Shown piece by piece: positions 15,332-28,038 of a DNA stretch of 28,687 nucleotides (the first letter of the stretch is position 1; each line of letters begins with the position of its first letter). The translations under genes and the position numbers were made by a program. The notes below the pieces were generated by a model. It saw only the letters and a list, made by a program, of their open reading frames with translations. It was not told where the DNA came from and did not search any database. The DNA is taken from contig JASEIO010000018.1 in the NCBI GenBank assembly GCA_030017475.1, forward strand, positions 1-28,687. The letters run 5' to 3'. The stretch is from a bacterium. GTDB lineage: Bacteria > UBA9089 > JASEIO01.

Positions 15332-15829
15332 ATGGTAATGTTTGGCGATATACACGATAAGGAAACTCAATATACGTATTTTAAAGAATGGGTAAGAGGA
15401 GAGATGAGAAGATCAGAACGATATCATCGTCCATTTTCTATAGTTGCCTTGGAAATTGGCTCTTCTAAAACTCAGGGTGATACAGAGGATATTATCTCTG
15501 AGGACATTATCTTTAAGATAATGGTTAAACTTCTAAGATATAAACAAAGGGCATCAGATTTTGTGGCTAGATTTGGAACCTCTGGCTTTATTATGATACT
15601 TCCTGAAACAGATAAAAAAGGGGCTTCTACTTTTACAGAAAGGATTAAGGTTCATCTAAAAGATTTTCTTTTAGATGAGGAAGGATTTGGAGATAAAGAC
15701 ATAGTAATAAGTAAAGGAATAGCAACCTTTCCCGAGGATGGTATGACAAATGATGAGTTATATAAAGTAGTCAATGAGGCCTTAAATGAATCCAAGAAGA
15801 AAGTAAGAGGTGATCCGAACACAAGGTAA
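15332..15829 (+). CDS. Degenerate GGDEF-domain protein
   Basis: A 165-residue protein that is almost entirely one GGDEF-like fold. RPFSIVALEIGS replaces the usual metal-binding DxDxFK strand. RASDFVARFGTSGFIMILPE aligns with the GGDEF hairpin, but the signature reads GTSGF (residues 82-86). TFTERIKV and VISKGIATFPEDGMTNDELY match the C-terminal part of the fold. With the signature and the metal Asp lost, it is not expected to make cyclic di-GMP. It could bind a nucleotide or another protein. It follows rsfS by three bases and ends about 30 bases from the convergent end of the chemosensory operon. There is no sensor or receiver domain. Confidence 0.75.
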   Translation: MVMFGDIHDKETQYTYFKEWVRGEMRRSERYHRPFSIVALEIGSSKTQGDTEDIISEDIIFKIMVKLLRYKQRASDFVARFGTSGFIMILPETDKKGASTFTERIKVHLKDFLLDEEGFGDKDIVISKGIATFPEDGMTNDELYKVVNEALNESKKKVRGDPNTR

Positions 15830-15857: not shown

Positions 15858-18800
15858 TTAGTACCTTACCAGGCGAGTTTTATAAAATGAAACCTTTTTA
15901 TTATGCCCATACCTTTTCTCATAATTAAAAACTGGGGGATGGATAGTTAGGGTTTCTAAATCAACTAAACCTGCCTTTTTAATATAGGCAATCTCTTTAT
16001 CTTTATCTCCTTTTATACCATAGTAAGTTCCTAAAAGTTGTTTTACTCTTTTGTCCTTTGGATCTAAATCCTCTGACTTTTTCATACACTCAATAGCCTG
16101 ATCAAACCTTCCTGTATTTCCATAAATAATACCTAAATTATACCAGGTTTTAAAATTGGTTTCATCTATCTCAATCACCTTTCTAAAGCACTTAATCGCC
16201 TTTTGGAAGTCATTCCTTTTCGTATTTACAACCCCTAAATTATACCAGATCTCTGAATCATCCGGATCAGTAACAATCGCCTTACTAAAACACTCCATTG
16301 CACTTGTATAATTATCCCTATCTATATAACATACCCCAAGATTATTCCATGCCTTGGTATCATTTTCATCTATCTTTAATGCCCTTTCAAAACAATCAAT
16401 TGCCTTTATAATCCATCTATTTTTAAAATAGCAGATTCCTAAATTGAAAAGGCTATCTGAATCATAGGGATTTATACTAACTGCCTTTTCAAAATAGGAG
16501 AATTCTTCCTCTAACATCCCCTTTTTCCCATAAATAATACCTAAACCTGCATAGGCTTCCAAATCTTCTTTATCTATCTCCACTGTCTTATTAAAACAAG
16601 CTATAGCTTCATCAAATCGCCCTTGTTTTTCATATATCACCCCTAAATTGTACCAGGTTGATCCATCTTCTGGATCTAATTCAACGGCCCTTTTGAGATA
16701 TTCCGCTGCCTTCTCTAATTCATCCCTTTCTTCATATATAATCCCTAAATTATTTAAGGCATAAGTGTCTGTCTCATTAATATCTATAGTTTTTAGAAGG
16801 CTTTTCTCTGCCTCATCGTATTCTTTTAGCTTACTATACAATACCCCCAAGTTATTCCATGCCTTATAGTCAAACTCATCTATCTCCGTTGTCTTCTTAA
16901 AACAAGAGATTGCATGTTCTATATCATGTTCCTCTTTATATAAACAACCTAAGTTATACCAAATTGTAGCCCCCTTTTCTTCTATCTTCTCTAAGATTTT
17001 AATTGCCTCGTCAAGCCTTCCAGATCTTTCATATAAAACTCCCAGGTTATTCAAGGCCTTATCACTTTTATCTACCTCCAGGGCCTTTTTAAAACAAAGA
17101 ATAGCCTTATCAAACTCTCCCTCTTTTTCGTATAAGTCTCCTAAATTATATAGAACCTCTACATCTTTTAAACCTAATGCATAAGCCTTTTCAAAACATT
17201 CCTTTTGTTTTTCATGCCTTCCTTTCTTTCCAAAACATACCCCTAAATCATACCAAAACGAGGGATTAAATCCTTGTAGTTCCTTTGCCTTTTTGATAAA
17301 TCTTTCCTCTTTCGTAAGATCTCCTTTCTTTCCAAAAGAGATGCCTAAAGCCCCCCAGGCTATAGCGCATTCTGGATCTAATGTAACTGCCCTTACATAG
17401 CACATAATCTCTTTATCTTCTAAGTCCTTATCTCCATAAACTCCACCAATCTTATACCAATACAGTGCATTTGTGGGATCATATGTGATTGCCTTTTTAA
17501 AACAACGTATCTCCTCCGTAATATCTCCTATCTCTCCAAAACATTCTCCTAAGGTATACCAGATTGTAGGATCATCTTTGGTTATATCCAAGGCCTTTCT
17601 TAATGCCCAAATTGCCTTATTTATATTTGTCTTCTTTTTATAACAGATCCCCAATCCATGCCAAAATGTTACGTTTTTAGGCTCAATATCAATTGCCTTC
17701 TTAATATAATCTATTTCTTTGTCGGGTTTCCCAAGCCTACCAAGACAGACTCCTAAATTATACAAGATCTTTGCATCATCTTTATTCATTTGTAAGGCCT
17801 GCGAAAAGGCATCTTTGGCCTTGTATAACCTGTTCTTCTTCATATATAAAAGACCCAAATTATACCAAACCTTCGGATCATTGGCATAGAATCCATTTGC
17901 CTTTTCAAAACATGTAATTGCCATATCCACATTGTTTGAGGTACTATAGGCATAGCCAAAATTATAAAGAACTCTGGCAAAGGAACCATCTTTCTCCATA
18001 CATTCGAATCTCTTAATGGCATAATCTGCAAGTTCTTGCAGATCTCGTCTTTTTTCACAAAGATTGCTAATTACCCATAAAATAGTCGGATTATCCTTCT
18101 TTTCCTTCAATAAAGAAACATATCTTTCCCTTTGATCCTGGTTTAATTCATCATATCTTTCAGCTAAAGATATTATCCCTTCCGTTTCACCAAGATCAAG
18201 TAATATATCAGGAAGAACCCTTTCTCTTTCATAAGGGGATGTATTTTCAGATTTTCTTACAACGATCTTCAATCCATCTTGAGTATTCAGGATTCTAATT
18301 TCCTGAAAGTTTGGAGAGATTCTACAGATTGAATCATAATAAAGAATCTGTTTATCAATAAGTCGTTGCACAACATCTGACCTTCCACCATAGTACTCTA
18401 CCCCTTTTTTTAGAACATCTTCTGTTGCCCCATCAAGATAGGACAATAATTTTAAGGCAAATTTTGAGTAATTGTCCATTGAGTCATACATCTCTTGATA
18501 AAATTTATCTACACTTAAAGGCAGATCCTTTATCCTATGCAGGGCCTCTTTATCTCTCTTTTTCATTTCTGTATAAACTGCTACAAGATGGGTAAAGGGT
18601 ATCTTCTTGTAGGTTGAGAGGATCCTTCTATAATCCTCATCCTCAAAATAGGGAAGAAACATTTCAATATCTTCATGCTCTAAAAACGAAGGTAGGTTCT
18701 CTATCTTGAAATTTAGACCCTTCAATAAATTGGGATCAAAACGTTCGGTTTCAGCAGTACACCAAATTGGGATACTAGGGAACCTTTGTTTTATCTTGCT

Positions 18801-20405
18801 CAATAGAAGACATATCCCTTCGATTTTATCAATATCATCAAATATAAGAACATAATCCTTCTTTATGCTCAGCCTTTTAAACAATGCCTCGACTTCAGGT
18901 ATCTTCTCCTTAATGGATATCCAGATGGCTTGATATCCTGCTTCGCATGCCTTATAACTCAAAAAGGATAAGAGGCTTGTTTTTCCAGTTCCGGAAGGAG
19001 ATAAAAATAGATAATCTCTAAACTTAAATCTTTCCATAAAATCCCGTATCTTCTGAGTTAAGATATAACAATTTTTAACCTCCTCCTTATTTAATATTGG
19101 TTTAGCAATCAATCTATCCTCTACCTCCCCTGATAAGGTCCCAAAATCCTTGTAACTCCAATCTTCTTCTAATCTTATAGGGACCTTTTCCTGAGCGATT
19201 CTTCTTTTCAAATAATATGAGTCAAGGTATACCTCCCTTACCTTTTTGATTAAGGTTTGCTGTCTTCTTTTATAGAAATCCACTACCTCTCTTATTCTCC
19301 TATCCTTTTTAAGATCATCTAAAAGGGTGATTATTTCTCCCAATTTTATAAATCTCCATTCATCAATAGTTAATATATTCTCTGGAAAGGAGACATTTTC
19401 CAAAAGAGAATCGAGATCCTCTCGGGATAGGGTAGGATAATTATGTACCAGTTTCTCTAACCTCTTTCCAAGAACTGAGGATAGTGAAATCTTCCACCAA
19501 AGGAAGATCTTATCTTCCCACGCTTGTATAATCGCCCTTTTATCCTTTCCTTTTTCGTATGAATCCTTGAAGTCTCTAAAATCAGGTAAGGTATTTTCAT
19601 AAATAAATGGGGAGATGTCCACTTTTTGTTTATCTAAGTCTAAAATAATAAGCGCCTCTTGGTATATAGGAACTGAAAGCTCTTTTCCTCTATAAATGAT
19701 TCTTGATCCTCCAGCACTCGAAACATTTGTGTATAATATCGTATGTCCGGATTTAAGTAAGGATGAAATATGATGATTTAAACCTTTTTCAAATTTAGGG
19801 GTTATAGGGGTATAGGCTAAGATAATTATAAATCGAGATTTACGGAAATCTGCACTTTTTACATATCTATCATAATCATCTATAAAATCATCTGATAGAA
19901 ACACTGAAAAGGCAAGATCATCCTCAATCAATCTCCAACCTTTTCCAGGTTTTATCTTCCCCTTTTCCCAAATGGACAGAGAGGACTTCTCAATGAGGCT
20001 AATCTCACCTTGATGGAATATGGTACTTATATTCCTTCCGAGGCGTGGGTTGATATCTAAGGACTTATAAATCCCTTCATCTTCTTTACAGGTTATGTGA
20101 CTACCCGAAATTACAGTTATTCCTTTATCTGCATAATCCTTAATTAATGGTAAGGAATCCGAAGGTATAGAATACTCTGGAAAGGCAATTAATGTGATCT
20201 CCCTTTTCTTACAATATGATAGGATCAAATCAAGCCTTGCATTTAACAACCCTATATAGCTCTCTTTTAATCCCTTTCTTTCGTCCTTTATATCCTCTAT
20301 CTTAAAAATCTCTTTCTCTTCAAGGGATAAAATCCCTTCTAAATAATCTACCCCTTGCGCATAAAAGGATGGGTTAAAATCCATTTGACAAACTGCGACC
20401 TTCAT
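15858..20405 (-). CDS. Nitrilase-fold/STAND-type ATPase/TPR giant protein
   Basis: A 1515-residue multidomain protein. Residues 1-270 have a carbon-nitrogen hydrolase (nitrilase) fold: MKVAVCQMDF, LIAFPEYSIP with catalytic-type E77, and IEKSSLSIWEKGKIKPGKGW with K140. At the expected Cys-x-Asp site it reads FLSDDFID, so S171 replaces the nucleophile. Residues 280-440 are mostly helical. A P-loop ATPase covers about 460-620: Walker A SPSGTGKTS (469-477), Walker B YVLIFDDIDKIEG with D523/D524, and IWCTAETERFDP as a sensor-like strand. A winged-helix/helical stretch to about 800 leads into roughly 20 TPRs (808-1484). The layout matches STAND-type signalling ATPases, where TPRs sense a ligand and the N-terminal domain acts. 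The ATG overlaps the REC-PAS stop as ATGA, tying it to the chemosensory operon. No membrane segment is seen. Confidence 0.8.
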   Translation of the reverse strand: MKVAVCQMDFNPSFYAQGVDYLEGILSLEEKEIFKIEDIKDERKGLKESYIGLLNARLDLILSYCKKREITLIAFPEYSIPSDSLPLIKDYADKGITVISGSHITCKEDEGIYKSLDINPRLGRNISTIFHQGEISLIEKSSLSIWEKGKIKPGKGWRLIEDDLAFSVFLSDDFIDDYDRYVKSADFRKSRFIIILAYTPITPKFEKGLNHHISSLLKSGHTILYTNVSSAGGSRIIYRGKELSVPIYQEALIILDLDKQKVDISPFIYENTLPDFRDFKDSYEKGKDKRAIIQAWEDKIFLWWKISLSSVLGKRLEKLVHNYPTLSREDLDSLLENVSFPENILTIDEWRFIKLGEIITLLDDLKKDRRIREVVDFYKRRQQTLIKKVREVYLDSYYLKRRIAQEKVPIRLEEDWSYKDFGTLSGEVEDRLIAKPILNKEEVKNCYILTQKIRDFMERFKFRDYLFLSPSGTGKTSLLSFLSYKACEAGYQAIWISIKEKIPEVEALFKRLSIKKDYVLIFDDIDKIEGICLLLSKIKQRFPSIPIWCTAETERFDPNLLKGLNFKIENLPSFLEHEDIEMFLPYFEDEDYRRILSTYKKIPFTHLVAVYTEMKKRDKEALHRIKDLPLSVDKFYQEMYDSMDNYSKFALKLLSYLDGATEDVLKKGVEYYGGRSDVVQRLIDKQILYYDSICRISPNFQEIRILNTQDGLKIVVRKSENTSPYERERVLPDILLDLGETEGIISLAERYDELNQDQRERYVSLLKEKKDNPTILWVISNLCEKRRDLQELADYAIKRFECMEKDGSFARVLYNFGYAYSTSNNVDMAITCFEKANGFYANDPKVWYNLGLLYMKKNRLYKAKDAFSQALQMNKDDAKILYNLGVCLGRLGKPDKEIDYIKKAIDIEPKNVTFWHGLGICYKKKTNINKAIWALRKALDITKDDPTIWYTLGECFGEIGDITEEIRCFKKAITYDPTNALYWYKIGGVYGDKDLEDKEIMCYVRAVTLDPECAIAWGALGISFGKKGDLTKEERFIKKAKELQGFNPSFWYDLGVCFGKKGRHEKQKECFEKAYALGLKDVEVLYNLGDLYEKEGEFDKAILCFKKALEVDKSDKALNNLGVLYERSGRLDEAIKILEKIEEKGATIWYNLGCLYKEEHDIEHAISCFKKTTEIDEFDYKAWNNLGVLYSKLKEYDEAEKSLLKTIDINETDTYALNNLGIIYEERDELEKAAEYLKRAVELDPEDGSTWYNLGVIYEKQGRFDEAIACFNKTVEIDKEDLEAYAGLGIIYGKKGMLEEEFSYFEKAVSINPYDSDSLFNLGICYFKNRWIIKAIDCFERALKIDENDTKAWNNLGVCYIDRDNYTSAMECFSKAIVTDPDDSEIWYNLGVVNTKRNDFQKAIKCFRKVIEIDETNFKTWYNLGIIYGNTGRFDQAIECMKKSEDLDPKDKRVKQLLGTYYGIKGDKDKEIAYIKKAGLVDLETLTIHPPVFNYEKRYGHNKKVSFYKTRLVRY
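15950..17990 (-). repeat. Array of about 20 TPR-coding units
   Basis: This part of the giant gene encodes about 20 consecutive 34-residue TPRs, almost all with the same WYNLG-xx-Y-xxxG-xxxxAIxCFxKAxxxxxxD pattern. The DNA also repeats: on the plus strand, CCTAAATTATACCA or one-base variants occur at the start of many units (for example near 16130, 16230, 16640 and 17850). This suggests expansion by unit duplication. One or two units deviate, such as the short one ending KILEKIEEK. Confidence 0.85.
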
Positions 20406-21220
20406 ATTTTTCGAAATACCTCCACTCCACCAACTATCTTTCCTTCTGTATCCCTTAATAGACCTAAACTACTTAAAACAGTAATCTCAGTCCCTTGTTG
20501 GGTTTTAATCCTCATCTCTATATTAGTTACTTCCCTCTCCTTTGATAATGCCTCTTCAAATATACATCTCTCCTCACACAGATTACCCTTTAAGATAGAT
20601 TTACACACCTTTCCCCCAACCTCTTCCCTTTTGTACCCTGTGATCTCTTCTGCCTTTTGATTAAAGTTTGTTATCTTCTTCTGGTCATCGATAGTTATCA
20701 ATCCTTCAGTAACATTGTTTATGATCGATTCAAGTTTTATCCGCTCCATTGTAGATCTATAGAGTTCTCTATCCAATAGATTCCCTATACTTGAGAGGAT
20801 CTCAATTGGATCTTGATGGAGTTCCGCCTTTTCTACCCTTTTTGGCGACCTATCTTTAGTAATCTCTTCAACAAGGTCAATTATTGCCTGAGGATCAAAC
20901 TCGGTTTTAGTGATATACCTGTCTGCTCCTGAATGTAGTCCCCAAAGCTTATATTGGGGATCATCCTTTGAGGTAAGCATAATTATGGGGATTTGTTGAG
21001 TTTGCTCATCCGCCTTTATCAATCGACATACCTGATAACCGCTTATCCTTGGCATCATAATATCAAGGAAGATTAAGCTTGGGGATTCTTTATAGACCTT
21101 GGTGATAGCCTCAATCCCATCAGAGGCAGTGATAACCTCAAAGCCTGATTCCTCAAGTATCGATTTCATTACCTCAACCACTGTCTGTGAATCATCAACC
21201 ACCAAAATCTTCTCTCTCAT
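20402..21220 (-). CDS. Response regulator with REC and PAS domains
   Basis: A 272-residue protein. The receiver domain (1-120) has D9/D10, phospho-acceptor D53 in LIFLDIMMPRISGYQ, the MLTSK strand and K105 in YITK. After a short linker a PAS domain fills 160-272 (IINNVTEGLITIDDQKKITN through GGVEVFRKI). It carries a C-x8-C-x3-C pattern (C206, C215, C219), also seen in PAS domains of some sensor proteins, that could bind metal or sense redox state. There is no DNA-binding, GGDEF or kinase output domain; the protein ends with the PAS fold. AGGAGGGG precedes the ATG. Its stop overlaps the giant ATPase gene. It is the best candidate for the diffusible output of this CheA pathway (inference). Confidence 0.9.
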   Translation of the reverse strand: MREKILVVDDSQTVVEVMKSILEESGFEVITASDGIEAITKVYKESPSLIFLDIMMPRISGYQVCRLIKADEQTQQIPIIMLTSKDDPQYKLWGLHSGADRYITKTEFDPQAIIDLVEEITKDRSPKRVEKAELHQDPIEILSSIGNLLDRELYRSTMERIKLESIINNVTEGLITIDDQKKITNFNQKAEEITGYKREEVGGKVCKSILKGNLCEERCIFEEALSKEREVTNIEMRIKTQQGTEITVLSSLGLLRDTEGKIVGGVEVFRKI

Positions 21221-21234
21221 TTCCCCTCCTTTAT

Positions 21235-22596
21235 CTACCTTAACCTTTTTAAGCCTCTTTTGCAGGCCTCTATTAATATCCCATTTATAAAGCCACCCGA
21301 AAAGTCTAAGACTTCATTTTTTGGTCTTTTTTCCAATAACTTGATTGCACTATTATATTCAGAACAGGCCTCTCGATGATCTCCTATATTTCCATATATA
21401 CTCGCTAAATTGAAATGGGTTAAAGGAAACTCTGGGTCTAACATAGCCGCCTTTTTCAATTCATCTATTGCTTGATACATCAATCCTTTTTTTTTATATA
21501 TTATCCCTAACAAAAAATGGGCCTTGCCTGATAATGGATTGATCTCTAAAGCCTTTTTACATTCCTCCACTGCCTGCTCAAACCTTCCCTTATCTGTATA
21601 CACCCTGGCTAAGGTAAAATGGACACGATCATCATTTCGGTTAAAGGCTAAACACCTATTCAATTCAAGTATAGCCTTATCAAAATCCTCCGCCTTGTAG
21701 TAATTAATTGCCTTTTTATAAATCTCTTCTGTATCTTCTCTTTTATAATAGGCTTCTAACTCTAACTTCTCTTTACGATATATAAAGGCCTGTCCAAGTT
21801 TTACAACCTGGAATTTATTAGGAATATGGTATAGGCTTTCGGAGTGACCAACAAATAGATAACCTCCAGGATTTAATGATTGAAAGAAATTGTGGATTAC
21901 CCTTTGGGTTGACTCCTTTTTAAAATAGATGGTTACATTTCTGCAAAAGATAACATCCCACGCACCCATGATCGATAAAGGATAAGGTTCTTTGATAAGA
22001 TTGAAGTAACGAAATGTAACCATATCTCTGATTTCATCCCGCAGTCTATATCTATCGTTTTCCTGTTCAAAGTATTTCTCGATATATCTCTTCGGAGCCT
22101 TTCTAATTGACCTTTGAGAATAGACACCCTTGGCTGCTATTTCAAGGGCACGGTTGTTTACGTCTGTAGCCAATATCTCTATCTTCCAATCTTTAAATCT
22201 AAACGCATCTCGCAGGATCATTGCGATTGTATATGGCTCCTCCCCTGTAGAACAGCCAGCACTCCAGATTCTTAACTCCCTCTCCTTTTTTTCATTCACT
22301 ATTTCTGGAATGATATAATCCTTTAAGGCATCGAATTGGTTCGGCTCCCGGAAGAAATATGTCTCTGTAATGGTAATTAAAGACAATAACTCATTGAATT
22401 CCTCTTTCCCTTTTGGATGGAATTTTAGAAAGTTATAATAATCATTAAAGTCTTTAAAACACATATCTCTTGTAATCCTTGCAATTAAGGCAATTCGTAA
22501 GGAGTCAAGGTTTGAATTATCGATATAGATACCGCTATTTTTTGAGATAAACTCTTGAAACCTTTCAAATTCCTGTTTGTTTAATTCGGTTCTCAT
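21235..22596 (-). CDS. cheR: CheR methyltransferase with C-terminal TPRs
   Basis: A protein of about 453 residues. The N-terminal CheR part has FISKNSGIYIDNSN, LLSLITITETYFFREPNQF, the SAM-binding IWSAGCSTGEEPYTIAMIL, ILATDVNNRALEIA and DVIFCRNVTIYF. It should methylate glutamates on the MCP signalling domain. About three to four TPRs follow (KAINYYKAEDFDKAILELNR through ASIYGNIGDHREACSEYNSA). CheR-TPR fusions are known from chemosensory systems with alternative functions. I take the ATG at 22596, which overlaps the cheB stop as ATGA; an in-frame GTG at 22605 is possible. The receptor has no C-terminal tethering pentapeptide, so TPRs may supply docking. Confidence 0.93.
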   Translation of the reverse strand: MRTELNKQEFERFQEFISKNSGIYIDNSNLDSLRIALIARITRDMCFKDFNDYYNFLKFHPKGKEEFNELLSLITITETYFFREPNQFDALKDYIIPEIVNEKKERELRIWSAGCSTGEEPYTIAMILRDAFRFKDWKIEILATDVNNRALEIAAKGVYSQRSIRKAPKRYIEKYFEQENDRYRLRDEIRDMVTFRYFNLIKEPYPLSIMGAWDVIFCRNVTIYFKKESTQRVIHNFFQSLNPGGYLFVGHSESLYHIPNKFQVVKLGQAFIYRKEKLELEAYYKREDTEEIYKKAINYYKAEDFDKAILELNRCLAFNRNDDRVHFTLARVYTDKGRFEQAVEECKKALEINPLSGKAHFLLGIIYKKKGLMYQAIDELKKAAMLDPEFPLTHFNLASIYGNIGDHREACSEYNSAIKLLEKRPKNEVLDFSGGFINGILIEACKRGLKRLR

Positions 22597-23633
22597 GATA
22601 AACACTCTTTGGTTATTTCCTGAGATATACGATCTATAGGAAGGATTCTATCCACTACCTTTAGATCAATTGCTGCCTTTGGCATGCCAAAGACAACACA
22701 TGTTTCCTCTGATTGTGAAATAGTAACCCCTCCCTTTTCTTTAATTGCCTTCAAGCCTTCGGCTCCATCTTTACCCATTCCAGTCAATATTACCCCAATC
22801 GATCTATCCCGAAAAACCGAAGCAACAGATGGTAATAAAACGTCTGCTGAAGGCCGGTGTCCAAAAACAGGTGGTTTTTTATTTAGTTCTATCCTCCCTT
22901 CTTCAGAAACTAACATATGGAACCTATTAGGGGCAATTAAGGCAGTACCTGGGTCTAATCTATCCCCTTCTTTTGCCTCTTTGACCCTTATCTTGGATTC
23001 TCTATCCAACCATTCCACTAAACCTTGGGTAAATCCATCGGCAATGTGCTGAACGATTGTTATACAACCTGGGAAATCCTCGGGAAGGGAACTTAAGATC
23101 TCTAAAAGTGCTGAAGGACCGCCTGTTGATGCTGCCATACCAATAACCTTAAATTTAACCCCTTCTTTCGTAATCTTTGGGGGTAAAGTGGAAGGCCTCT
23201 TTCTCCCTTTTAAATGGGTGATTACTTCTATCTGGCTAAGTAACTTCACCCTTTTTATAAGATCCTTTCCAATAGAAGAAATCCCCATCCAGTTTTCTGG
23301 AGCAGGTTTCTCCACCACATCTAAAGCCCCTGCCCTTAACGACTCAAATGTCAGATCCATATCTTCTTTAATTACTGAGGCTGTAACTACCAATATAGGA
23401 GTTGGGAAATAGGCCATTATTTGCCCAATTGCCTCTAATCCATTCATATGAGGCATATGGATATCCATAGTTATTAAATCTGGCCGAAGTCTCTCAGTCA
23501 TCTCCACAGCCTCTATCCCATTTTTTGCCTGCCCTACAATCTCTATATCTTTATCTGAGCTTAATATAGTAATGATCATCTCCCGAGCCACTAAAGAATC
23601 ATCAACTACCAAAACCCTTATTTTATCAGACAT
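22593..23633 (-). CDS. cheB: CheB protein-glutamate methylesterase
   Basis: A 346-residue protein with a receiver domain (1-120, D57 in LITMDIHMPHMNG) and a C-terminal methylesterase. The catalytic triad is visible: S169 in GMAASTGGPS, H196 in IVQHIADGFT and D289 in LTGMGKDGAEG. SEETCVVFGMPKAAID is the usual C-terminal block. It removes methyl groups from the chemoreceptor and should be activated by CheA phosphorylation, giving adaptation together with CheR. It is coupled to cheR by an ATGA overlap and lies about 50 bases after cheA with GGTGG before the start. Confidence 0.96.
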   Translation of the reverse strand: MSDKIRVLVVDDSLVAREMIITILSSDKDIEIVGQAKNGIEAVEMTERLRPDLITMDIHMPHMNGLEAIGQIMAYFPTPILVVTASVIKEDMDLTFESLRAGALDVVEKPAPENWMGISSIGKDLIKRVKLLSQIEVITHLKGRKRPSTLPPKITKEGVKFKVIGMAASTGGPSALLEILSSLPEDFPGCITIVQHIADGFTQGLVEWLDRESKIRVKEAKEGDRLDPGTALIAPNRFHMLVSEEGRIELNKKPPVFGHRPSADVLLPSVASVFRDRSIGVILTGMGKDGAEGLKAIKEKGGVTISQSEETCVVFGMPKAAIDLKVVDRILPIDRISQEITKECLS

Positions 23634-23684: not shown

Positions 23685-25703
23685 CTAAATAAGTCTTTCA
23701 ATTGTATCCAATAGATCCTCTTGCGAAAATCTTGATTTAACAACATAGGTCTGTGCCCCAACCTCCGCACCCTTTTCCCTATCTTCTTCCTTTTCTCTGG
23801 CTGTGACTATAACCACAGGGATATCTTTATATCTATCGTCACTTTTTAACCTACGGGTCAATTCAAATCCATCCATTCTTGGCATTTTGATATCAGTCAC
23901 TATCAAATCAAAGGACCTTTCTTTTACCTTATTCATAGCCTCTTCGCCATCCGAGGCCACCTCTACTTCATATCCAGCTCCCTCTAAAATACCCTTTTCA
24001 AGTTCTCGAGTGGTCAAGGAATCCTCTACTACCAGTATTCTTCTTGTTCCAACTTTTTTGGATCCTTCTTTTACCCCAAACCTAACACGGGACTTAAGCA
24101 GTCTCGCTGATTTCACCAAATCAGGGATATGTAATATAATCACTACCTCTCCTCCACCTAAGATGGTTGAAGAGGTCACAAATTCCTGTTTTCTTAAGAT
24201 CTTATCGAGGCTTTTAATCACTACTTCTTGTTCTGAGATTACCTCATCTACCAAAAAACCGATCTTTTGCTCTTGAAATGTTATAATCACCACATTCAAT
24301 TTATCATCCCTTTCTTCTGATTCAAAAACATCTTCTAATCCAAGGATATCTTTTAACCTAACCAAAGGTAAGGTCTCTCCCCTTACTTGAATTGCCTGAT
24401 AGGTCTCAATGGTCTTTATCTCCTCTTTCTGAATCTTCAATATCTCTACAACAAGGGATGTAGGGATACCAAAAACTTGACCATTTAGGCTTATCAAAAG
24501 AACCCTCGTTATAGCTAAGGTTAAAGGTAGGCTTAAGGTAATGCGGGTGTATATACCAGGTTCTGAATCTATAGAGATAGTGCCTTTTAGGTCTTCAATG
24601 TTTCTTTTCACCACATCCATTCCTACTCCTCTACCAGCCAAATCATTCACAGTTTTAGAGGTAGAGAATTCGGGTTCGCATATTAAATAAAGCAGATCCT
24701 TTCTCGACATCTTTTCCAAATCCTCTTTGTTAATCAATCCCTTTTTTATGGCCACCTCTTTTACCGAATCTATATCTATCCCCCTTCCATCATCTTCTAT
24801 ACTAATTATTATGTGATCCCCTTCTTCATAGGCAGAGAGAATAATCCTCCCTTTTTCAGGCTTTCTTAGTTTCAATCTTTCATCCTTCGATTCAATCCCA
24901 TGGGAGATGGCATTTCTAACCAAGTGAATCAAAGGGTCATTGATATATTCTAATATCTTCTTATCCAGATTGGTTTCACCCCCTCTTATCTCAAGCTCTA
25001 CCTCTTTATCATACTCCTTAGCCAAATCCCTTACTGCCCTTGGAAATAGATCAAATATAATGGATACTGGCATCATCCTCATCTGTAATGCCACTTGTTG
25101 TAAATCATCTATAATCAAATCCATACGTAGGATATCTTCCTTTAGTTTGGAAAGAGGGTTTTTTGGATCACTTAAATTACCTATCATCTGTTTAAATCTG
25201 TTTTGATTTATTACTACCTCTCCAATTAGATTTACTAATCTATCAAGATGCTCAAGTTTTACCCTAACTGTTTCTTCAATAATTCTAACATCCCTAACCT
25301 TCTCCTCTTTTTTTCTTGGTTTTACCTCTATCCCTTCTCCCCTTTTTACCTTATCAAAGCAGTGGCAGATAAAGTCTGCCTTAGCTAATCTTCCTTCTAA
25401 AAGCGCATTGATAGTATCAAAGGATTCAAATAATAGATCGAATAGTTGTCCATTTAATTCCAATCTTCCTTCTTTTACCTCCTGAAATATGTCCTCCATC
25501 CCATGTGCTATCTTATCTATATCTAAAAATCCCACCATTCTTGCAGAACCTTTTAATGTATGACAAACCCTTATAATCTCCGATAAGGTAGTTGCATTTC
25601 TTGGCTCCTTTTCTAATACCAAAAGAAAGGCATTTAAATCTTGAAGGTGTTCCTTTGCCTCTTCTTTAAATTTACTGACAAACAAAGATCTATCAAATTT
25701 CAT
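23685..25703 (-). CDS. cheA: Hybrid CheA histidine kinase with C-terminal receiver
   Basis: A 672-residue kinase. The HPt domain (1-110) has H48 in [16 protein letters not shown] charged linker of about 25 residues replaces the P2 CheY/CheB-docking domain. P3 dimerisation follows ([20 protein letters not shown]). The ATPase P4 has the N box [12 protein letters not shown] (N264), [14 protein letters not shown] and GRGVGMDVV. The CheW-like P5 covers about 390-535, and a receiver domain (555-672) has D604 in [11 protein letters not shown] and K656. Missing P2 plus fused REC resembles FrzE, WspE and ChpA-type kinases of non-flagellar pathways. I take the ATG at 25703, behind GAAGAGG; an upstream TTG (25760) would start inside the mcp-cheA stem-loop. 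Confidence 0.95.
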
Positions 25704-25731
25704 CTCAAAACCTCTTCTATAAAATTTATTA

Positions 25732-25768
25732 CCCATCTTTTTCGCACCTTCAGGGTGCAAAAGATGGG
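25732..25768 (-). other. Stem-loop between mcp and cheA
   Basis: Immediately after the mcp stop, CCCATCTTTT-GCACC pairs with GGTGC-GA-AAAGATGGG around a 5-base loop: about 15 bp with a two-base bulge. No T-run follows, so it is not a classic terminator. It could protect the upstream mRNA from 3' decay, be a processing site, or limit readthrough into cheA. Confidence 0.6.
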
Positions 25769-25771
25769 TTC

Positions 25772-27025
25772 TTACAGGGTAAATTCAGAGATGGCCTTTT
25801 TTAACTCCAAAGATAAAACATTTAACTCTTCTGCTGAAGAGGTTGTCTCCCGAGATGAAGCAGCTGACTGCTTGGCTACTTCAACTACCTCTTTTATGGT
25901 AGCTACTACCTGTTCTGAAGCAGACCTTTGTTGTTGTGTAGCAATCGATATCTGCCTTGCAGAGACACTTGTCTTTTCAATTGAATGTAGGATCTCCTCC
26001 AATGCCCTCCCTGCCCTTTCTGCCAATTCTACTCCTCTTTCTACTGTTTTAATACCCTCTTCAGAGCTTAAAACCAGGGCATTGGTTGCATGCTGGATCT
26101 CAGTTATTATATCTCTTATCTCCTTGGTTGAAGAAACGACCGATTCAGCAAGTTTCCTTACCTCCACTGCTACAACAGCAAATCCTTTTCCTGCCTCTCC
26201 AGCCCTTGCAGCTTCAATGGCAGCATTTAAGGCCAGTAGATTTGTTCTATCAGCTATCTCATCAATTATCTTGATCACCTCTCCAATACTTTGTGACTTT
26301 CTACCTAAATCGAGAATGCGTTTAGAAAAATCTATAGTATTTGCCTTTATCTCTTTCATCCCTTTTATTTCATTTTCTACCTGTTCCTGACCAACCTTAG
26401 CGGTAGCTAAGGTTCTCTCAGCATTTTCAAATACTGAATTGGCTGATTCAGCAATCTGGCGTGAGGTATTAGCTAACCCCTCTATGGTAGCTGATGCTTC
26501 AGATAAAGAGGCAGCTTGTTCTGCACTGCCGCTTGCTTGTTGGTTAGAGGCAGCTAAGATTTGGGATGATGCAGAACTTATCTGAAAACCAGCATCTTGA
26601 ATCTTCTTTCCTAAAGAACGGAGAGAGGAAATCATTTGGTTTAAACCCTCACCCAAACGTCCCATTTCATCCGAAGAGGTAACCTCTATCTTTTTGGTTA
26701 AGTCTCCTTTGGATGCAGCAGTTACCACTTCTAAAAGTTGCTTTACCTTTTCCCCGAGATATATCTTCTGGTTTTCTAATTCAAGTGCACTTTTTCTTCT
26801 TTTTTCTTCAGCCTCTTTTAATGAATCTATCATTTGCTTCAATACCTTTCTGTATAAAAATACAGTTATTCCTAAACCTATAACGATAAAGAGAATAGAG
26901 ATAGCTAATTTAATACCTGCTTCGACTTTAGAAATGGAAAATATAGCTAAAACTACCATAAATGCAATAATTATAATAGGACCAGAAAATAGTGCCTTAA
27001 GTGGGGCTATCTTTTTCTCTTCCAT
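25772..27025 (-). CDS. Methyl-accepting chemotaxis protein without a periplasmic sensor domain
   Basis: A 417-residue receptor. Two membrane helices (about 14-32 and 38-58) are separated by only about five residues, so there is no extracellular ligand-binding domain. A HAMP-like region follows ([33 protein letters not shown], to about 140). The long coiled-coil signalling domain has its tip at [20 protein letters not shown] and [16 protein letters not shown] (258-292). Possible methylation Glu/Gln pairs flank the tip. The C-terminus (ISEFTL) has no CheR-tethering pentapeptide. The input must come from the membrane, the cytoplasm or a partner protein. GGGAGGG precedes the ATG. Confidence 0.95.
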
Positions 27026-27552: not shown

Positions 27553-28038
27553 TTAGGTTATGGAAGCTATAATATTTTTAATATTAAGAACATTGAAAAG
27601 TCTTCCAGAAATCTCTATTTCTCCATCTATATAATCCTTTTTACCCTTTTCAATCGTCAATAAAGGTGGTTGAATATTGGCTATTTCAATCTCCATTACA
27701 TCTATTACAGAATCTACTGTTATTCCCAATACCTCGGTATCTACCTCCACAATAATAATCCTTCGAGATCCTTTAAGGCATTCCACTTCTAACCCTAATA
27801 TCTTCCTAATATCTATAACAGAGATAATATCTCCCCTTAAATCTATTACCCCTAAAATAAATTCCGGAGTACGAGGGACATGTGTAATCCCAGTCATATT
27901 CAAGATTTCTCTAACATATTGAACATCCAAGATGTAAAATTCTGTTGCTAAAGAAAAGGCTACCATTTGCACCTTTTTCTCTTCCATTCCCTCTTTTCCT
28001 TCTTCTACTTTTTTTAAAATCTCTTCACTTTTTCTCAC
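27553..28038 (-). CDS. cheW: CheW-like coupling protein (first)
   Basis: A 161-residue protein. A charged N-terminal helix of about 22 residues precedes one CheW domain: MVAFSLATEFYILDVQYVRE, ILNMTGITHVPRTPEFILGV, IDLRGDIISVIDIRKILGLE, IIIVEVDTEVLGITVDSVID and LFNVLNIKNIIAS. The PRTPEFILGVIDLRGDI block is highly typical of CheW. The start is a GTG at 28038 behind AAAGGAG. It is the first gene of the chemosensory operon, with its own near-consensus promoter immediately upstream. Confidence 0.93.
   Translation of the reverse strand: MRKSEEILKKVEEGKEGMEEKKVQMVAFSLATEFYILDVQYVREILNMTGITHVPRTPEFILGVIDLRGDIISVIDIRKILGLEVECLKGSRRIIIVEVDTEVLGITVDSVIDVMEIEIANIQPPLLTIEKGKKDYIDGEIEISGRLFNVLNIKNIIASIT

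Follow-up and report, generated by a model that had tools for sequence, protein, structure and literature searches.

STAND proteins are familiar as immune receptors and transcription regulators, and the locus described here raises the question of what such a protein might be doing as the last gene of a chemosensory operon. The first-pass annotation of the window (the whole stretch of DNA analyzed, 28,687 nucleotides of contig JASEIO010000018.1, in which no tRNA or Rfam family was found) had placed a 1515-residue nitrilase-STAND-TPR chain at 15858-20405. Both the coordinates and the chain length are right, and we add that the gene lies on the minus strand. Its parts are as follows.

15858..20405, minus strand: probable pseudo-nitrilase, STAND ATPase and TPR protein of 1515 aa, a single uninterrupted open frame
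19506..20405, minus strand: degenerate nitrilase (CN-hydrolase) fold, about residues 1-300, from a profile-profile match with controls
18006..19148, minus strand: nSTAND3-like P-loop ATPase, about residues 420-800, from a profile match and Walker motifs
18978-19001, minus strand: Walker A of the STAND protein
18834-18851, minus strand: Walker B of the STAND protein
15951..17978, minus strand: 20 TPRs in register, residues 810-1485, from the repeat register and Pfam TPR_1

Single-sequence searches recognized only the TPRs and a weak P-loop in this protein, and homolog profiles show more; single-sequence structure prediction gave mean pLDDT values of 39 and 46, and the models were not used. For residues 1-300, no nitrilase match was obtained by single sequence in Pfam, NCBIfam or the PDB, nor did a PDB search with a profile of three homologs return a match. 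Aligned to the genuine nitrilases of the same phylum, however, the three-homolog profile gave an hhalign probability of 95.8% (E 7e-9) over 196 collinear columns, and all reversed and column-shuffled controls stayed at or below 6.1% with less than half the score (maximum among 100 column-shuffled profiles, 6.1% and a score of 27, versus 66.5 for the real alignment). The carbon–nitrogen hydrolase fold proposed for this region is thus borne out at the profile level; what had been missed is the loss of the catalytic Cys. The window protein shares with the nitrilase superfamily (PF00795) a collinear fold signature and the catalytic Glu (Glu77) and Lys (Lys140), but the Cys that completes the Glu-Lys-Cys triad, and that is retained in genuine nitrilases of the same phylum, is replaced by Ser171 in the window protein, by Ser in its paralog in the same genome and by Gly in the copy of a second genome (G010), and none of the family models exceeds its cut-off. 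Because the Cys column reads Ser, Ser and Gly while Glu and Lys remain, we read the N-terminal domain as a pseudo-nitrilase that is, judging from these residues, very probably catalytically dead. An active nitrilase was rejected because the Cys is lost. It is also very improbable that the domain is an amidase or nitrilase working through another nucleophile: in its favor, Glu77, Lys140 and the following Glu147 are invariant across the three nitrilase-bearing copies, but the nucleophile column itself is not conserved, and the genuine nitrilases of the phylum have kept their Cys.

The ATPase is as first described: Walker A, SPSGTGKT, spans residues 469-476, and the two Asp of Walker B are at 523-524. 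Both motifs, the latter of the hhhhDD type typical of STAND proteins, are conserved in the six complete relatives counted (six in four genomes, the window protein included), among which the Gly-x-Gly-Lys of Walker A and the first Asp of Walker B are invariant. The nSTAND3 model (PF20720) matches the window protein at E 7e-5 and 23.0 bits, below the 27.2-bit cut-off, and the 43% identical paralog in the same genome at 31.8 bits, above it. By eye, the sensor motif [ST]-x-R appears as TAR, STR or SAR in four of the six and is lost in the window protein; for the winged-helix motif GxP, what is seen is x-x-P-h in most of them. A tree of the six ATPases is deep and weakly supported, such that the ancestral arrangement is not readable from it. 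The estimate of about 20 TPRs agrees with the 20 counted in register over residues 810-1485 (Pfam TPR_1, E 5e-128), beneath which no tandem repeats were found at the DNA level. Effector position, NTPase and superstructure-forming repeats therefore follow one another as in STAND NTPases; this is a genuine and uncommon type of protein, and its switch anatomy is well supported.

The neighboring genes, which share the strand of the STAND gene and are separated by no more than about 50 bp, form the run cheW-cheW-mcp-cheA:REC-cheB-cheR:TPR-REC:PAS that the STAND gene closes, as had been noted.

20402..21220, minus strand: REC-PAS response regulator (Pfam Response_reg and PAS), with a 4-bp overlap with the STAND gene
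21235..22605, minus strand: CheR methyltransferase with TPRs (45% to CheR of genome G007)
22593..23633, minus strand: CheB methylesterase (49% to CheB of G007)
23685..25760, minus strand: CheA with C-terminal REC
25772..27025, minus strand: MCP with HAMP and no recognized sensor domain, the sole MCP of the genome
27064..27549, minus strand: CheW
27553..28038, minus strand: CheW

CheA probably begins at residue 20 of its open reading frame, with the ATG of MKFDRS, given that CheA of genome G004 aligns from MKFD on. The overlap previously reported between the STAND start and the REC-PAS stop is present, with the ATG at 20405-20403 and four shared bases, ATGA (context ATATGA); since the ATG sits within the stop of the preceding gene, the two genes are probably coupled translationally. 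The operon has the hallmarks of alternative cellular function (ACF) pathways such as Wsp, in which CheR-TPR, hybrid CheA and multidomain regulators, REC-PAS among them, occur (PMC3447774): it contains all three, together with two CheW, an MCP and CheB as in Wsp and other ACF clusters. It differs at the output, which in Wsp is the REC-GGDEF protein WspR (PMC3447774) and here is REC-PAS followed by the STAND gene. This is the only che cluster of the genome, which encodes three CheW domains, one MCP and one CheB, and the MCP comprises HAMP and signaling domains. Convergent with the STAND gene, at 15332-15829 on the plus strand, lies a GGDEF-family gene whose product has a degenerate GTSGF in place of GGDEF. 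Outputs other than the STAND protein are possible, because the genome encodes type IV pilus-type (PilB/PilT-type) ATPases and nine further GGDEF domains (ten with the degenerate one).

Comparison with related operons bears on whether the STAND gene belongs functionally to this one. The che loci of four relatives were read, and each has a Wsp-like REC-GAF-GGDEF regulator next to cheB; CheA, CheB and CheR of the window are 45-49% identical to those of the orthologous clusters. Through the REC domain and the linker the window regulator matches its counterpart at 46%, and PAS follows; the output-carrying portion of the operon has thus changed in the window lineage. The strongest case for a functional link is that the STAND gene is coupled exactly at this changed slot, a suggestive argument that comes from one genome, and the comparison suggests that the gene may have been recruited to the che operon in this lineage specifically.

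The distribution of the family points in another direction. Among the 386 genomes searched, the STAND-TPR module occurs in four, all of one small and poorly known phylum, and the nitrilase-bearing form is confined to three copies in two of these four. The six complete loci are (i) the window gene, behind the che operon; (ii) the paralog on contig C45 of the same genome, between ribH-nusB and a DUF2225 gene; (iii) the nitrilase-bearing gene on C283 of G010, whose 1871-aa product has a longer TPR tail; (iv, v) genes without the nitrilase domain on C15 of G009 and C208 of G010, after ribH-nusB-DUF2225; and (vi) a gene on C33 of G018 (L012:3111-6335), which has no nitrilase domain and ends in an HD domain (PF13487). 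The partner at the N- or C-terminus of the STAND-TPR chassis thus varies between pseudo-nitrilase, none and HD domain. The HD domain in G018 has an HD-GYP-like motif by eye, and its gene adjoins a GAF histidine kinase and an NtrC-type regulator. In three genomes a DUF2225 gene accompanies the STAND-TPR gene behind ribH-nusB (L010:12479-17713, L013:6218-9925, L014:8605-12479), and the two may possibly form a functional pair. A scan of genome contigs returned only a TPR-level match, in an Aminicenantes genome. Only the window locus, one of six, adjoins che genes, and no MCP or CheB was found in G009, G010 or G018. The family is therefore independent of chemotaxis proteins in these three genomes, and is not a dedicated Che output; the idea that this protein type serves as the output of chemosensory operons largely gives way before a survey in which five of six loci lie away from che genes. 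For the window gene itself, coupling to the che system is plausible and only suggestive, being found in one genome and not conserved in relatives.

These loci also speak for a quite different role, namely that the protein is an independent sensor, of Avs-like immunity or of stress, that merely uses the transcription of the che operon and has no part in Che signaling. We regard this as a serious possibility, if somewhat short of an even chance. STAND proteins combine an N-terminal effector, a central NTPase and a C-terminal sensor, and Avs5 joins nSTAND3 to TPRs (PMC12931631). The window protein resembles Avs5 (AVAST type 5) in carrying an N-terminal module, nSTAND3 (PF20720) and C-terminal TPR/Sel1-like repeats in one chain, and thus has the Avs arrangement of nSTAND, C-terminal repeats and N-terminal effector, in layout only; in Avs5, by contrast, the effector is an active one of Sir2 type and a role against phages has been tested (PMC12931631), whereas the window protein has a dead nitrilase fold, a che operon context and no defense neighbors. 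A dead effector domain is ill-suited to simple abortive infection, no defense genes are present in the window, and no defense-specific PADLOC match was obtained. Origin from a defense island or mobile element was rejected, the PADLOC matches being TPR-driven or marginal and searches of plasmids, phages and viral contigs returning nothing. Moreover, both the overlap with REC-PAS and the coincident change in the regulator slot would have to be accidental if the sensor were independent.

Contig ends in two of the genomes also bear on this role, insofar as they point to several copies with an identical 5′ part. In G009, the start of C17 (L081:1-141) is the end of C32 (L082:8711-8851), with exactly 141 bp in common; the shared segment is the end of the STAND module, after which the contigs enter different TPR arrays. 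The assembly seems to branch where the STAND module meets the TPRs, which is what two genes with a common 5′ part and different tails would give. In G010, the first 55 bp of the C283 gene, counted from its ATG, recur at one end of each of contigs C20 and C279 (L101:1-55, L102:6110-6164 and L011:5804-5858), and the DNA is unrelated right up to the ATG; upstream lie a comEC-like gene on one contig and formate-dehydrogenase-like and acetyltransferase-like genes on the other. This suggests a minimum of two loci, or variants among strains. Because assemblers leave such overlaps at branches, an identical 5′ part seems to be present in more than one locus or in strain variants. The contig ends raised the idea of a hypervariable TPR arm, which is weakened by the long TPR tails of G009 and G010, two genera, being 61% identical over 1042 residues with no gaps.

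MalT carries a C-terminal superhelical TPR-like sensor and offers a second point of comparison. The likeness of MalT and other STAND regulators (PMC10427625) to the window protein lies in the STAND ATPase; the difference is the DNA-binding domain with which MalT ends, the window protein having none. A ligand-responsive regulator or scaffold of this kind, whose TPRs would gather partners (those of CheR too) and whose nitrilase fold would hold an amide- or nitrile-type ligand uncleaved, is improbable. Its pocket could still bind something, given that Glu77, Lys140 and Glu147 remain invariant despite the loss of the Cys, and the family chassis does carry different partner domains, such as the HD domain in G018; yet binding in the pocket and contact with CheR are both conjecture, and the absence of a DNA-binding domain argues against MalT-like regulation.

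The reading that we tentatively prefer, at a little under an even chance, is that a tripartite STAND switch of the Avs5/MalT layout was recruited as the last member of an ACF/Wsp-like operon, where it probably works with REC-PAS. What we infer for such a protein, namely the switch mechanism, a contact with REC-PAS and any phenotype, would run as follows. The superhelix of 20 TPRs would bind or hold a protein ligand; the presence of ligand on the TPRs would free the ATPase, allowing ATP binding and oligomerization; and oligomerization would cluster the nitrilase-fold modules, which would bind a partner, the pseudo-nitrilase acting by binding. REC-PAS, phosphorylated by CheA, would be the partner of the STAND protein, and is the simplest candidate in the operon because it has no enzymatic output of its own. 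In the literature searched, such a partner is not described for any Che pathway, in keeping with what the first-pass annotation had supposed, nor was a nitrilase-STAND-TPR combination or a described case of STAND or NACHT proteins with chemosensory systems found; an eLife survey of STAND-type conflict systems leaves nitrilases and chemotaxis unmentioned (PMC7159879).

A more specific form of this recruitment, which we consider unlikely, is that the STAND switch replaces the c-di-GMP output of the array, with phosphorylated REC-PAS licensing the switch and the phosphorelay thereby setting the threshold of an NLR-like receptor. If true, this would connect two large fields of signaling and offer an NLR-like protein whose control by a phosphorelay could be tested. 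Should the connection to che fall away, an nSTAND3-TPR protein with a pseudoenzyme of nitrilase fold in the effector position would remain new and worth recording.
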